64,000 nucleotides of DNA from Demequina capsici (GTDB lineage: Bacteria > Actinomycetota > Actinomycetes > Actinomycetales > Demequinaceae): contig NZ_CP134880.1 of the NCBI RefSeq assembly GCF_032102965.1, forward strand, positions 1,240,001 to 1,304,000, given 5' to 3'. The notes beneath the pieces are model-generated. The model was not told the origin of the DNA and made no database searches. It saw nothing but the letters and a program-made list of their open reading frames with translations. Shown here piece after piece: positions 8,406 to 15,076 of the stretch. The translations under genes and the position numbers were made by a program. The first letter of the stretch is position 1. Each line of letters opens with the position of its first letter.

Positions 8406-9611
8406 TCAGTCGTTCGCTGGTGCGGGGGCCGGAAGCGCGAGCATCCGGTCCAGCGCCACCTTGGCCTCTGCCTGGGTCTGCGTGTCGACGACGATGCGGT
8501 TGGGCACCTCGCCGGCGACGAGCGACTCGAGCGCCCACACCAGGTGCGGGAGGTCGATGCGGTTCATCGTGGAGCAGAAGCAGACGGTGTCCTCCAGGAA
8601 GTGGATCTGCTTGTCGGGGTGTGCGTTCGCGAGGCGACGCACCAGGTTCAACTCGGTGCCGATGGCCCAGGCGGTGCCGGGCTCGGCGGCCTCGATCGCC
8701 TTGATGATGTACTCCGTGGAGCCCACCATGTCCGCAGCGTTCACGACATCGTGCGCGCACTCGGGGTGCACGATGACTGTGATGTCAGGCACCCGCTCGC
8801 GCAGCGCGTCAACGTTCTCCTTGCGGAAGCGGCCGTGCACGGAGCAGTGGCCCTTCCACAGGATCATCCGCGCGGCGGCGAGCTGCTCGACGGTGTTGCC
8901 GCCCAGCGGCTTTCGGGGGTCCCACACGACGCAGTCGTCGAGGCTCATCCCGAGCTTCAGCACGGCGGTGTTGCGGCCCAGGTGCTGATCCGGGAAGAAG
9001 AAGACCTTGCCGTCGCCCTCCACGCCGCCGATCTGGTCGAACGCCCAGCGCAAGGCGGTCTCGGAGTTCGACGACGTGCACACCGCGCCGCGGTGGCGCC
9101 CGCAGAAGGCCTTCAGCGCAGCGGTGGAGTTCATGTACGTGATCGGGATGGTGCGGTCGGTGATGCCCGCCTCGGCGAGCTGCGCCCACGCATCCTCGAC
9201 CTGGTTGATGTCCGCCATGTCGGCCATCGAGCAGCCGGCTGCCATGTCGGGCAGCACCACCTGCTGCTCGTCCGACGTGAGGATGTCGGCAGACTCCGCC
9301 ATGAAGTGGACGCCGCAGAAGACGATGAACTCCGCCTCAGGACGGTTCTGCGCGTCGCGGGCCAGCTTGAAGGAGTCGCCCGTCACGTCGGCGAACTGGA
9401 TGACCTCGTCACGCTGGTAGTGGTGGCCCAGGACGAACACGCGGTCGCCCAGCTTCTCCTTGGCCTTGCGAGCCCGTTCCACGAGGTCGGGATCCGACGG
9501 TGCGGGAAGGTCTCCGGGGCAGTCGACGCCTCGCTCCGACAGCAGGTCACGACGCTGACCCAGCAGAAGGAGGGCGGGCGACTCGGCAGGTTCCGTGAAG
9601 GTCGCGCTCAT
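8406..9611 (-). CDS. nadA: quinolinate synthase
   Basis: [4Fe-4S] enzyme condensing iminoaspartate with dihydroxyacetone phosphate to quinolinate in NAD synthesis. 401 residues, the longer actinobacterial form. The N-terminal GHHYQRDEV segment binds substrate. Cluster Cys are in FCGVHFMAES, HPECAH and CFCSTM, and substrate contacts occur in YMNSTAALKA. The ATG at 9611 has GACAAT (9618-9623, minus strand) ending 6 bases upstream, so the mRNA is predicted leaderless. nadB and nadC, its usual partners, are not in the window. Confidence 0.95.
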   Translation of the reverse strand: MSATFTEPAESPALLLLGQRRDLLSERGVDCPGDLPAPSDPDLVERARKAKEKLGDRVFVLGHHYQRDEVIQFADVTGDSFKLARDAQNRPEAEFIVFCGVHFMAESADILTSDEQQVVLPDMAAGCSMADMADINQVEDAWAQLAEAGITDRTIPITYMNSTAALKAFCGRHRGAVCTSSNSETALRWAFDQIGGVEGDGKVFFFPDQHLGRNTAVLKLGMSLDDCVVWDPRKPLGGNTVEQLAAARMILWKGHCSVHGRFRKENVDALRERVPDITVIVHPECAHDVVNAADMVGSTEYIIKAIEAAEPGTAWAIGTELNLVRRLANAHPDKQIHFLEDTVCFCSTMNRIDLPHLVWALESLVAGEVPNRIVVDTQTQAEAKVALDRMLALPAPAPAND

Positions 9612-10681: not shown

Positions 10682-10853
10682 GGAGCCGGCCGGGCACAAC
10701 GTCGGAGCGTCGCGCGTTCACTTGAGCAGGGCCCGGCGGTGGAACCCCTCAGCTGCCGTCGGGTCCGCCTCTCCCTTCCGTGCTGGTGGGGGCTCTTCGG
10801 GAATCGACCCGCGCGTCGTACGCTTGTAGAGGTATCAACGAAAGGAAGTGGCC

Positions 10854-11207
10854 ATGACCGACACCGCCACCGAGACCCCCACCCACGGCGTCGCCATCAC
10901 CGACGCCGCTGCCGCGAAGGTCAAGAGCCTGCTGGAGCAGGAGGGCCGCGACGATCTCCGTCTGCGACTCGCCGTGCAGCCCGGCGGGTGCTCCGGCCTG
11001 ATCTACCAGCTGTACTTCGATGAGCGCACGCTCGACGGCGACGCGATCCGTGAGTTCGGCGGCGTGGGCGTCGTGGTCGACAAGATGTCGGTGCCGTACC
11101 TCGACGGCGCGACCATCGACTTCGCGGACACGATCGAGAAGCAGGGCTTCACGATCGACAACCCGAACGCCTCGAGCTCCTGCGCGTGCGGAGACTCGTT
11201 CGCCTGA
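10854..11207 (+). CDS. erpA: A-type iron-sulfur carrier (HesB/IscA/ErpA family)
   Basis: 117-residue carrier that accepts an Fe-S cluster from the assembly machinery and inserts it into target enzymes. The three ligand cysteines are present: one in PGGCSGL and two in SSCACGDSF. The ATG at 10854 follows AAAGGAA with 6 bases between; an in-frame GTG two codons upstream is the alternative. In this window likely clients include NadA, aconitase and the Rieske protein. The upstream gap (10682-10853) shows no clear promoter hexamer with good spacing. Confidence 0.92.
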   Translation: MTDTATETPTHGVAITDAAAAKVKSLLEQEGRDDLRLRLAVQPGGCSGLIYQLYFDERTLDGDAIREFGGVGVVVDKMSVPYLDGATIDFADTIEKQGFTIDNPNASSSCACGDSFA

Positions 11208-11223
11208 TCGGCGCGATCGTCTG

Positions 11224-11268
11224 ACGAAGAAGGACGGCGTGGGCCTCGGCCCCGCCGTCCTTCTTCGT
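11224..11268. terminator. bidirectional terminator between erpA and the desulfurase-like gene
   Basis: Perfect 16-bp stem (11224-11239 with 11253-11268) and a GC-rich 13-base loop between convergent stop codons; the distal arm ends CCTTCTTCGT. Confidence 0.85.
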
Positions 11269-11289
11269 GTCGGTGTGGAGTGCTCGGCC

Positions 11290-12465
11290 TCAGTGCTGGA
11301 CGCGGCCCCATGACGGCTGATGCTGGGCGCCGGCCCACGGCACCCCCAGCCCCGCGTCGGCGCGAGCCTCGCCGATGATGCGCGGGAGCAGCGCGAGGAA
11401 CCGGTCCACCATCGGCTCGTCCACGCCCGGGTGGAGACCGATCCTGACGTTGCCGGTGGAGGGGGACCCGATCGCCGCGAGCACGCGGCTCGGCTCGAAC
11501 CCGTCGTGCTCGCACGCCGACCCTGATCCGACGGCGATGCCTTCCTTGTCCAGGCGGGCCAGGACGGCCTCCCCGTCGACGCCGCTGCACAGGAGCGTCA
11601 CCAGATGTGGGGCGCGCTCCAACGGGTCCCCGACCACAGTCACTCCGGGCATCGTGGCAGCCGTGGAGCGGATCCACTCCGTCATCGCACGCATGCGGGC
11701 CTCGACGGCCTGCCGATGCTCCACGCGCTCCTGCAGGGCGACCGCCGCAGCGAGCACCAGCGGCACCGAGATCCCGCCGGCCTCCCAGCCGGAGCGTTCC
11801 GGCCATGCGGGGAGCCAACGGGTGCGGGAACGGATCGCCAGCACGCCGATGCCTGCGGGCCCGCCCCAGTCGGCCGGATTCGCGACCAGCGCATCCCACG
11901 CCGCCGGCGACTCCATGTGCCCGATGGACGCGGTCGCGTCGACCACCAGCGGCACCTCGTGAGCCTTGGCGATCTCATGAACGTCGTCGAGCCGCTGCGC
12001 GGTGCCCAGCTCGTGGTTGACGTGCTGCACGGCGGCGATGGTCACGTCGGGGTAGTCGAGCGCGGCGGCGAAGGCCTCGAGATCCAGGTGGCCCTGCTCG
12101 TCGACCGCGACAGTCTCCAGACGACCCTGCGCGTAGTAGTGGGCGGCATGGAGCGTCGCGTCGCGCTCGACGGCGGAGGCGACGATCCGCTCGCGGCCGC
12201 GCCGGGCGGTATGCACGGCGCCGATCGTCCGCTCCAGAGCGATGACGGCGCTGGGGGAGAACGCGACCTCGTGGGTGGGGCAGCCGAGCACCTCTGCGAT
12301 CGCCTCGCGCGCGCCTTCCACCAGGGCCTGCGCGCGCCGCGACTCGGCGTGGAGACGACGCGGATCCGCCCACCCGTCTGCGAATCCTGCGCGGATGGCC
12401 TCGAGGACCCTGGGTGTCATCGGAGAACTGCCGCTCGCGTCAAGATACGTGCGGGTCAGAGCCAT
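11290..12465 (-). CDS. cysteine-desulfurase-like protein lacking the PLP lysine
   Basis: 391 residues with the full NifS/IscS fold: DASGSSP at the N-terminus, the GT-Q segment (NHELGTAQ, residues 150-157), Asp176 that would pair with the PLP ring nitrogen, and the active-site Cys loop GSGSACEHDG (Cys318). Two cofactor residues are missing: the region that should read S-x-HK-x-x-GPKGIG reads NPADWGGPAGIG (residues 196-207), so the Schiff-base Lys is Asp199, and the PLP-stacking His of the EH motif is Arg101. It is therefore probably not a desulfurase; a scaffold or regulatory role is possible. The ATG at 12465 lies 6 bases after TACCGT (minus strand, 12472-12477). The open frame upstream of it is ignored because it enters ctaC. 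Confidence 0.8.
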   Translation of the reverse strand: MALTRTYLDASGSSPMTPRVLEAIRAGFADGWADPRRLHAESRRAQALVEGAREAIAEVLGCPTHEVAFSPSAVIALERTIGAVHTARRGRERIVASAVERDATLHAAHYYAQGRLETVAVDEQGHLDLEAFAAALDYPDVTIAAVQHVNHELGTAQRLDDVHEIAKAHEVPLVVDATASIGHMESPAAWDALVANPADWGGPAGIGVLAIRSRTRWLPAWPERSGWEAGGISVPLVLAAAVALQERVEHRQAVEARMRAMTEWIRSTAATMPGVTVVGDPLERAPHLVTLLCSGVDGEAVLARLDKEGIAVGSGSACEHDGFEPSRVLAAIGSPSTGNVRIGLHPGVDEPMVDRFLALLPRIIGEARADAGLGVPWAGAQHQPSWGRVQH

Positions 12466-12497
12466 GACAGAACGGTACCGCGCGCTATGCTGTGGAC
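12466..12497. promoter_or_regulatory. 32-bp divergent leaderless promoter pair, desulfurase-like / ctaC
   Basis: TACCGT (minus, 12472-12477) and TATGCT (plus, 12486-12491) are 8 bases apart, each 6 bases from its start codon. The gap length and hexamer spacing are identical to those at pepA/pyrD. Confidence 0.65.
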
Positions 12498-13364
12498 GTG
12501 TCCCCAAATACCAGTCCCCGTATGCTCAGGCGCACCCTGACTGCGGTCGTGCTCGCCGGCGCGGCAACGCTGCTCGCAGGCTGCTCGACCGGCATCGAGA
12601 ACGGTGCGCTTCCCTCGACCCCCGAGGTCACCAACCACACCGGCACCATCATCCGGCTGTGGAACGGCTCCTGGATCGCAGCCCTCACCGTGGGCGTGAT
12701 CACCTGGGGCCTGATCCTCTGGGCGGTGGCCGTCTATCGCAAGCGCAAGGGCGATGACAAGCTGCCCAAGCAGACGCGCGCGAACGTGCCGCTCGAGCTC
12801 ATGTACACGATCGTCCCCATCGTCATGGTCGGCGTGCTCTTCACCTGGACCGTGCGCGGCGTGTGGGAGATCAAGGACACCTCGGCCGAGCCGGACGTGG
12901 TGATCCAGGTCATCGGCAAGCAGTGGTCGTGGGACTTCAACTACCTCACTGACGACGTCCACTCGATCGGCGTGCAGGCGCAGCTGAACAACGGCACCGA
13001 CGTCGAGGACACCATCCCCACGCTGTACCTCCCGGTCGACGAGACCGTCGAGTTCCACCTGAACTCGCGTGACGTCATCCACTCCTTCTGGATCCCCGCC
13101 TTCCTCTACAAGGAGGACACGATCCCCGGCAAGACGAACGTCTTCCAGGTGGTGCCCCAGGAGGAGGGCACCTACGTCGGCAAGTGCGCCGAGCTCTGCG
13201 GCGAGTACCACGCCTCCATGCTGTTCAACGTCAAGGTCGTCTCCCGCGAGGAGTACGACGCGTACATCGAGTCGCTGCGCGCCAAGGGTCAGACCGGCGC
13301 CATCGGCCTCGACTACTCGCGCGACCAGGCAGTTCGGATCGGCATCGAGGAGAGCGGGGAGTAA
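12498..13364 (+). CDS. ctaC: cytochrome c oxidase (aa3) subunit II
   Basis: CuA-bearing subunit that accepts electrons from cytochrome c (here from QcrC). 288 residues. A lipoprotein signal ends in LLAGC (Cys29), two transmembrane helices follow (about 50-75 and 95-115), then a periplasmic cupredoxin domain with the CuA ligands His in DVIHSFWIP and [15 protein letters not shown] 12498 is chosen because TATGCT ends 6 bases upstream; GTG 12492 is in frame but directly abuts the hexamer. It is first in the ctaC-ctaD-ctaF unit and overlaps ctaD by one base (TAATG). Confidence 0.95.
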
Positions 13365-15076
13365 TGGCCACCGTCGCATACGAGGAGCCAGGCGCTCTCG
13401 ACACCGTCCGCACGATCCCGGCAGCCCCCAGCCGTTCCGGGTCGCAGGTCATCAAGTGGATCACCTCCACCGACCACAAGACCATCGGGTACATGTACCT
13501 GATCACGTCGTTCTTCTTCTTCATCGTGGGCGGCATCCTCGCCCTGCTGATCCGCGCCGAGCTCTTCGAGCCCGGCATCCAGATCGTGCAGTCGGCGGAC
13601 CAGTACAACCAGCTCTTCACGATGCACGGCACGATCATGCTGCTGCTGTTCGCGACCCCGCTCTTCGCAGGCTTCGCGAACGTGATCATGCCGCTCCAGA
13701 TCGGCGCGCCCGACGTGGCGTTCCCGCGCTTGAACATGTTCGCCTACTGGCTCTACCTGTTCGGCGGTCTGATCACGATCTCCGGCTTCTTCACTCCGTC
13801 CGGCGCCGCCTCCTTCGGATGGTTCGCCTACGCGCCCCTGTCGAACGAGGTGTACTCGCCGGGCGTCGGAGGCAACCTGTGGGTGTTCGGCCTGGCCCTC
13901 GCCGGATTCGGAACCATCCTGGGCTCGGTCAACTTCATCACGACGATCGTGACGATGCGTGCCCCCGGAATGACGATGTTCCGGATGCCGATCTTCACCT
14001 GGAACACGCTCGTGACCTCCATGCTGGTCATCATCGCGTTCCCGCCGTTCGCGTCGGCCCTCTTCGCGCTCGGTGCCGACCGCGTGCTTCACGCGCAGGT
14101 GTTCAACCCTGACAACGGCGGCGCCATCCTGTGGCAGCACCTGTTCTGGTTCTTCGGTCACCCCGAGGTCTACATCATCGCGCTGCCGTTCTTCGGCATC
14201 GTGTCCGAGATCTTCCCGGTGTTCAGCCGCAAGCCGCTGTTCGGCTACCACGGGCTGGTCTACGCCACGATCGCGATCGCCGCGCTGTCCGTCTCCGTGT
14301 GGGCGCACCACATGTACGTGACGGGTGCGGTGCTGCTGCCGTTCTTCTCGTTCATGACCATGCTGATCGCGGTGCCGACGGGCGTGAAGTTCTACAACTG
14401 GATCGGCACCATGTGGCGAGGCAAGATCGTCATGGCCACGCCCATGCTGTGGTCCGTCGGCTTCCTCATCACGTTCCTCTTCGGTGGCCTGACAGGCATC
14501 ATCCTGTCCTCGCCGGTCCTTGACTTCCCGATCTCCGACACGTACTTCGTCGTGGCTCACTTCCACTATGTGGTGTTCGGCACGGTGGTCTTCGCGATGT
14601 TCGCCGGCTTCTACTTCTGGTGGCCCAAGTTCACCGGCAAGATGCTGAACGAGACGTGGGGCAAGGTCCACTTCTTCCTGCTGTTCATCGGCTTCCACAC
14701 CACGTTCCTCATCCAGCACTGGCTGGGTGCGGCGGGCATGGCGCGACGCTACGTCGACTACCTCCCGGAGGATGGCTTCACCTGGATGAACCAGGTCTCC
14801 ACCGTGGGCGCGTTCCTCACGGCCATCTCCACGCTGCCGTTCCTGTGGAACGTGTACATCACGCACAAGCGCGCGCCCAAGGTGACGGTCGACGACCCGT
14901 GGGGCTTCGGTGGCTCGCTCGAGTGGGCCACCTCCTGCCCCCCGCCGCGTCACAACTTCACGTCCATCCCGCGCATCCGATCCGAGCGCCCCGCGTTCGA
15001 CCTGCACCACCCCGAGGTGGCCGCGATCGACCACGCGCACGATCACGACAAGCCCGTCAAGGTCGCGGCGAAGTAG
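13364..15076 (+). CDS. ctaD: cytochrome c oxidase (aa3) subunit I
   Basis: Catalytic heme-copper subunit reducing O2 to water and pumping protons. 570 residues with twelve transmembrane helices. Visible landmarks: MHGTIM with a heme a ligand His; [10 protein letters not shown] with the CuB His and cross-linked Tyr; WAHHMYVTG with two more CuB His; and [12 protein letters not shown] with heme a3 and heme a ligands. The start ATG overlaps the ctaC stop by one base after GGGGAG, indicating translational coupling. The His-rich C-terminal tail ([12 protein letters not shown]) is cytosolic. Confidence 0.97.

Follow-up and report, generated by a model that had tools for sequence, protein, structure and literature searches.

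A cysteine desulfurase homologue tied to the cytochrome oxidase locus of Demequina capsici: probably an order-wide and recurrent PLP-less version of the enzyme

Divergently from the cytochrome oxidase gene ctaC, the genome of Demequina capsici encodes a cysteine desulfurase homologue, here called X, which to judge from sequence comparisons is probably an order-wide, and probably recurrent, PLP-less version of the desulfurases tied to the cytochrome oxidase locus. The gene lies in the window, by which we mean the whole 64,000-nt stretch of contig NZ_CP134880.1 that was analysed; the genome is a single contig of 3.08 Mb. We give about an even chance to the reading that X is a PLP-free pseudo-desulfurase which acts via its Cys318 loop and is co-expressed with the aa3 oxidase, taken jointly with the view that selection has continued to act on its fold, the Cys318 loop, Asp176 and Arg341. 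The features of the locus are collected in Table 1.

Table 1. Features of the X locus, in window coordinates
Feature	Position	Strand	Basis
X gene, cysteine desulfurase homologue without PLP lysine or histidine	11290..12465	-	ORF translation, Pfam, model
Arg101 codon, replaces PLP-stacking histidine (E. coli IscS H104)	12163..12165	-	alignment
Asp176 codon (E. coli IscS D180), retained	11938..11940	-	alignment, orthologue counts
Asp199 codon, replaces PLP lysine (E. coli IscS K206)	11869..11871	-	alignment
Cys318 codon, sole conserved cysteine	11512..11514	-	orthologue counts
Arg341 codon (E. coli IscS R354), retained	11443..11445	-	alignment, orthologue counts
ctaC, aa3 oxidase subunit II, divergent from X	12498..13364	+	family models; GTG start at 12498
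ctaD, aa3 oxidase subunit I	13364..15076	+	family models
ErpA-type iron-sulfur carrier gene, convergent with X	10848..11207	+	117.3 bits vs. curated cut-off of 117
Terminator-like hairpin in the erpA-X interval	11239..11255	+	1 found, 0.3 expected
nadA, quinolinate synthase, often nearby in X loci	8406..9611	-	family models
X-ctaC intergenic gap, 32 nt	12466..12497	.	same length in 44/44 same-genus loci
-10-like box TATGCT, 6 nt before the ctaC GTG	12486..12491	+	TANNNT in 44/44
-10-like box TACCGT, 6 nt before the X ATG	12472..12477	-	TANNNT in 44/44

Fold and cofactor site of X

X is a protein of 391 AA that, by ORF translation, starts at an ATG at 12465. It matches the class-V aminotransferases over its full length (PF00266, E 7e-38, residues 6-356), and proteins like it are named cysteine desulfurases in databases. 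X stayed under the curated cut-off of every NCBIfam desulfurase model that it matched, the best being FeS_nifS with 174 bits vs. 531, and the domain search gave no TusA domain in the window protein. The structure predicted for X, built on 66 related proteins, had a mean pLDDT of 91; the Foldseek library used for this model was pdb_via. Compared with known structures, the model scored highest with human Nfs1 (Z 48.5), followed by the IscS proteins of M. tuberculosis (48.0), E. coli (47.9) and A. fulgidus (46.5), and the predicted match to IscS and Nfs1 spans nearly the whole length.

The translation contains R101, N150, G154/T155/Q157, D176, the segment N196-P-A-D199-W-G-G-P, and C318 within GSGSAC. 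When X is aligned with E. coli IscS, R101 falls on H104, D199 on K206, D176 on D180, C318 on C328, and R341 on R354, which we take to have a role towards the substrate carboxylate. Translation and alignment confirm what a sequence-only reading of this DNA had proposed, namely that the PLP lysine is replaced by Asp199 and the PLP-stacking histidine by Arg101; its residue numbers were also found to be correct, and the parts that it described as kept (the Cys318 loop, the GT-Q segment and Asp176) are in place. The only lysines of window X are K167 and K307.

In E. coli IscS, residues S203, H205, H104 and T76 have roles in holding PLP. Window X carries N196, A198, R101 and V74 at these positions and is thus without all four PLP-contact residues. 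Among 118 distinct Lys-less X proteins, from which the E. coli and A. fulgidus IscS references were also left out, Ser was present at the S203 position in 4, His at the H205 position in 0, His at the H104 position in 19, and Thr at the T76 position in 45 (E. coli IscS numbering). The 39 Lys-bearing X proteins have Ser at S203 and His at H104 in 39/39 each and Thr at T76 in 37/39; their residue at H205 is His in 25/39 and Arg in 14. As Thr persists in so many Lys-less proteins and the H205 histidine is seen in only 25 of the 39 Lys-bearing ones, the phosphate site is an unclean marker.

Another lysine as the carrier of PLP was ruled out for 79 of the 136 long Lys-less X proteins, which have no lysine anywhere, and such a substitute therefore cannot serve in most of the group. 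An alternative conserved lysine was not found among the 118 Lys-less proteins either, no column holding more than 8% lysine. Even the Lys-bearing proteins of the family are poor in lysine, with a median of 2. Cys318 is present in 136/136 Lys-less and 91/91 Lys-bearing X proteins covering the position, and the next most conserved cysteine reaches 47%. With the lysine gone order-wide, most PLP-contact positions changed and Cys318 as the sole conserved cysteine, the sequences strongly support the earlier suggestion of a pseudoenzyme.

Might X hold PLP non-covalently and still be weakly active as a desulfurase or lyase, a partner or some other base standing in for the lysine? The 45 Lys-less proteins in which Thr survives at the T76 position would suit such a mechanism. 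So would A. fulgidus IscS, which was first described as an unusual desulfurase (the title of PDB 4hvk calls it so) and which, having Asp199, is drawn with PLP bound in a figure legend of PMC9769115. Asp199 alone hence does not exclude PLP, and because of this drawing the absence of PLP from X is a point that we infer. Yet window X is without the Lys, the His, the Ser, the second His and the Thr of the PLP site, and later work on Archaeoglobus, in the excerpts at hand, reports no activity. The residues of X argue strongly for absence of the cofactor, and we regard non-covalent binding as very unlikely.

Several other active-site residues are retained by the Lys-less proteins: Asp176 in 136/138 and Arg341 in 136/136 of those covering the position, and Asn150 in 117/118. 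Retention of Asp176 and Arg341 might indicate that X still has a ligand of some kind. This leads to a distinctly unlikely alternative in which the emptied pocket of X takes up another small molecule and X is a sensor or a PLP-independent enzyme. It would fit the conservation of these three residues despite the loss of the PLP residues, and also the pairing of Asp199 with Arg101 in 89/89 cases in the alignment with the 118 Lys-less proteins. The pair is not fixed, however, as in family f51 Asp199 goes with Ser, Thr or Pro at residue 101 in 9/9 Asp rows, and residue 199 itself is variable (D, S, T, A, G, M, E). The same f51 rows led us to reject an obligatory Arg101-Asp199 salt bridge as a general feature. 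In two f51 loci (L272 and L275) X has His for Asp176 too, and Cys318 is still there.

Distribution and origin of the lysine loss

X was found in 47/47 genomes of the window's family. All 48 family copies are without the lysine: 46 have Asp at residue 199 and the other 2 Ser, and at residue 101 Arg is found in 46 and Ala and Ser in 1 each. The lysine is also absent in 50/50 X copies from other families of the same order. Alignment with IscS and close relatives, which had been proposed as a check, thus revealed a loss that is conserved in orthologues, mostly at the ctaC locus. The sequence-only reading had further held that orthologues retaining the HK motif would point to a sequencing error or recent decay. 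Such orthologues do exist, but neither is implied by them: those found all belong to other orders, and as the loss is old and conserved, it is not refuted by them. A sequencing error or recent decay is excluded by the missing lysine in all 48 family copies, and chance by the conservation in the family and the order. Two genomes of another genus of the family (loci L052, L054 and L055) have a divergent form of X in which residue 199 is Ser and the loop is richer in Cys (GCGCTC, GVGCSC); one of these genomes also carries the Arg/Asp form.

Lys-less X proteins occur in Demequina, Cellulomonas, Oerskovia, Isoptericola, Cellulosimicrobium, Promicromonospora, Sanguibacter and others. The motif EH...SA(H/R)KWGGP is retained in Streptomyces, Kitasatospora, Micromonospora, Actinoplanes and others, with the locus nearly always the same. 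At 80 named loci the combination of residues 101/199 was Arg/Asp in 40, His/Lys in 39 and His/Ala in 1. Pooling of the distinct orthologues gave 229 proteins, 91 Lys-bearing and 138 Lys-less. Both the query and the genomes chosen enriched this pool for Lys-less relatives, the search profile being based on Lys-less proteins. Residue 199 in the 138 Lys-less members is D in 98, S in 22, A in 6, T in 6, G in 4, E in 1 and M in 1. For these counts identical sequences were taken once, after removal of the IscS of this genome and of the IscS-type rows L211-L220.

Outside the order the lysine is kept in 45 of the 48 X proteins sampled, which comprised the 28 best-scoring loci listed and 20 chosen for other families. 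A further 24 genomes yielded 17 Lys-less X proteins, including all 13 read from family f51; because these genomes had been selected by weak score and odd family, they bias upward the proportion of Lys-less X outside the order. Two of the loci are probably misnamed or misbinned: L103, recorded as Sphaerisporangium cinnabarinum, has an X that groups with Cellulosimicrobium, and L130, on an 'Acidobacteria' MAG contig, has an actinobacterial-looking X-ctaC locus.

The columns around residues 96-103 and 194-203 were omitted from all trees. Support for the separation of X from IscS is 100/100. In a tree of 66 chosen rows, which left out the long rows L208, L054 and L055 among others, a single clade (100/97.8) unites the 41 Lys-less X proteins of the order; Lys-bearing X surrounds this clade, and IscS lies outside. 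When 115 rows, the long ones included, were used for a quick tree, Lys-bearing X fell inside the Lys-less ones, a placement that we take for a long-branch rooting artefact. A. fulgidus IscS joins E. coli IscS (100/99), away from X, and its Asp199 is for this reason independent of the loss in X; common descent of the two losses is rejected by the same node.

For a tree of 92 rows, parsimony gave 7 changes in the presence of Lys (bootstrap 6-8), of which the strongly supported branches force 2, and a single Lys-less clade was not rejected (p-AU 0.119). Judged from these sequences, the lysine was likely lost repeatedly among X proteins. Intermediate states are found as well: His is kept with Ser, Ala or Gly at residue 199 in families f15, f17, f18 and f5, and part of f17 combines Arg or Gln with Ser or Thr. 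The existence of such states suggests that the Arg101/Asp199 state of the window is probably a later step. As orthologues of Streptomyces, Micromonospora and others keep both His and Lys, the ancestor of X was probably a real enzyme, and the sequences point to a probable class-I (IscS/NifS-type) cysteine desulfurase encoded beside ctaC.

The dN/dS ratio was estimated from 29 of the 48 family copies. It was 0.06-0.09 in the six lowest-dN pairs of the 25 listed and 0.06-0.32 over the 25 lowest-dS pairs, with a median of 0.36 over the 238 pairs with dS<1. This median is probably due mainly to saturation in a GC-rich group; the selective constraint on X may be only moderate. We consider it extremely unlikely that X is decaying and about to be lost: the window copy has no premature stop, the least-diverged pairs have low dN/dS, Cys318 is invariant, and both locus and promoter are preserved. 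Points that would accord with decay are the lysine's probable loss on several occasions, the long branches of some tree rows, the moderate dN/dS of most pairs, and the profile search, in which many genomes of the order and class were without X among the matches listed.

The oxidase locus and other sulfur genes

The neighbours of X are as the sequence-only reading had stated, with X between erpA and the ctaC operon (matches to ErpA-type, CtaC and CtaD proteins), and the CtaC and CtaD of the window are of the actinobacterial type. Among the 223 loci with enough flanking sequence, 216 have X and ctaC in divergent orientation; within a distance of 1.3 kb this holds for 133/136 Lys-less and 83/87 Lys-bearing loci, 6 more having too little flank. 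An ErpA-like gene is present in 71 of the 72 X loci with at least 4.5 kb downstream of X. In the window erpA is convergent with X and not co-transcribed with it. At one locus (L084) X appears to be inverted between erpA and ctaC and so is no longer divergent from ctaC.

The only promoter-like match in the interval 10700-12700 falls in the X-ctaC gap (0.1 expected from shuffles). The constant gap length was recorded for 44 same-genus loci (L009-L051 and L056); in other families the gap is mostly longer. The core of the 32-nt gap is GC-alternating with the two boxes mirrored, which makes it a candidate for a textbook divergent leaderless promoter pair. A TANNNT box 6 nt before the start codon is the look of leaderless genes. 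Because of this resemblance, X and ctaC are very probably co-expressed in this genus from a paired, probably leaderless promoter, and the compact promoter that had been ascribed to both genes gains support from the 44 loci. Searched genome-wide, the motif of this promoter gave one exact copy and no other match within 3 mismatches, and the reversed control gave 5 matches; with a single copy and such a control, no regulon is shown.

The same genome encodes a SufS-type protein, with a SufU-type gene adjoining, and an IscS-type protein, both with intact His, Lys and Cys motifs, so that sulfur supply in general may do without X. Their presence brings up another explanation, which we hold to be possible if on balance unlikely: X could be a non-catalytic partner or decoy of SufS or IscS, forming mixed dimers or competing for acceptors (SufU or others) and thereby tuning sulfur flow, with Cys318 incidental. 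X has the same fold as the IscS-type protein of the genome and 33% identity to it, candidate SufS-, SufU- and IscS-type partners are all encoded, and the whole Cys loop is kept. An incidental Cys318 agrees poorly with the invariance of this very residue, beyond that of the loop, and a partner of these enzymes would hardly be expected from the clear separation of X from IscS in the tree or from its linkage to ctaC and not to suf or iscS.

Two X proteins, a Lys-bearing one of Streptomyces (L129) and a Lys-less one (L135), have a C-terminal TusA domain, and these fusions fit a sulfur-relay role. In the latter (L135, 4977-6434, the same protein as in L186) the lysine is replaced by Ala and the C-terminal TusA domain is retained; from its sequence, this fusion could only relay sulfur that it received from another protein. 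The only TusA-domain match in the genome of the window (G000:C1:2999152-2999358) lies inside a long open frame with a stretch resembling pyridine-nucleotide-disulfide oxidoreductases, followed by a rhodanese-like part, both named by eye.

Proposed role and known counterparts

Since the cofactor parts are lost and both the cysteine and the oxidase locus are kept, X probably does a sulfur or Fe-S job and is not the usual enzyme. X of the window's order is without the Schiff-base lysine and has changed at most other PLP-contact positions. In the mechanism that we propose, X would probably keep the dimeric desulfurase shell and the Cys loop. Cys318 would be a thiol or persulfide acceptor for sulfur received from elsewhere. 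Alternatively, by analogy with Archaeoglobus IscS, it might be a cysteine ligand in Fe-S cluster assembly with SUF or A-type machinery. X would be made together with the aa3 oxidase from the paired, probably leaderless promoter in this genus, and SufU, the ErpA-like carrier and the bc1-aa3 cluster proteins are candidates for its partner. Freedom from PLP, dimerisation, the task of Cys318, co-expression, the choice of partner and a link to oxidase or bc1 maturation would all belong to this proposal, and so would the persulfide carrier or scaffold role and the part in ctaCD maturation that the sequence-only reading had raised.

A bolder version, which we think rather unlikely, has X as the founder of an actinobacterial family that needs no PLP and is reserved for the bc1-aa3 branch, serving a cluster-bearing respiratory protein with sulfur or with a Cys ligand. 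If so, X never needed cysteine desulfuration in vivo, and for this reason the lysine would have been dispensable again and again while Cys318 and the linkage to ctaC were not. For the pseudo-desulfurase reading that we prefer, X may be regarded as a natural separation-of-function mutant, which asks what the Cys loop does without taking sulfur from cysteine. The strict linkage of X to the oxidase would point to a hitherto unknown sulfur or Fe-S step in actinobacterial respiration.

In the open-licence literature (titles and the beginnings of abstracts, among the matches listed) we found no paper on such a family in actinobacteria or in other bacteria. A desulfurase that is inactive but has a working cysteine is, as a concept, already known from Archaeoglobus: according to excerpts of PMC7585200 and PMC9769115, A. 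fulgidus IscS is inactive as a desulfurase owing to a Lys-to-Asp change, and its Cys321 ligates the cluster of IscU. Excerpts of PMC7585200 also describe Methanosarcina acetivorans IscS1 as being without the catalytic lysine. This protein is likened to X by description only; it has lost the lysine as X has, but is archaeal and paired with IscU1.

The class I desulfurases (IscS, NifS, Nfs1) share with X the fold (Z up to 48.5), the GSGSAC loop and the active-site Asp and Arg, whereas X is without their Schiff-base Lys, His104, Ser203 and His205. Streptomyces L129 has the same locus beside ctaC and belongs to the same family by the tree; unlike window X it keeps His and Lys and carries the TusA domain, and with 269 bits it is also under the NifS cut-off of 531. 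Most similar to X among the PDB entries by sequence is A. fulgidus IscS (PDB 4eb5, 4hvk, 4r5f), which resembles it in fold (Z 46.5), in the Asp at the aligned position 199, in the retained Cys and in a DATAS motif. It differs in keeping His, Ser196 and Thr70, and thus more of the PLP site than window X, and in having Leu where X has Arg341. Finally, A. fulgidus IscS is seen in 4eb5 as a complex with IscU, whereas X adjoins ctaC.
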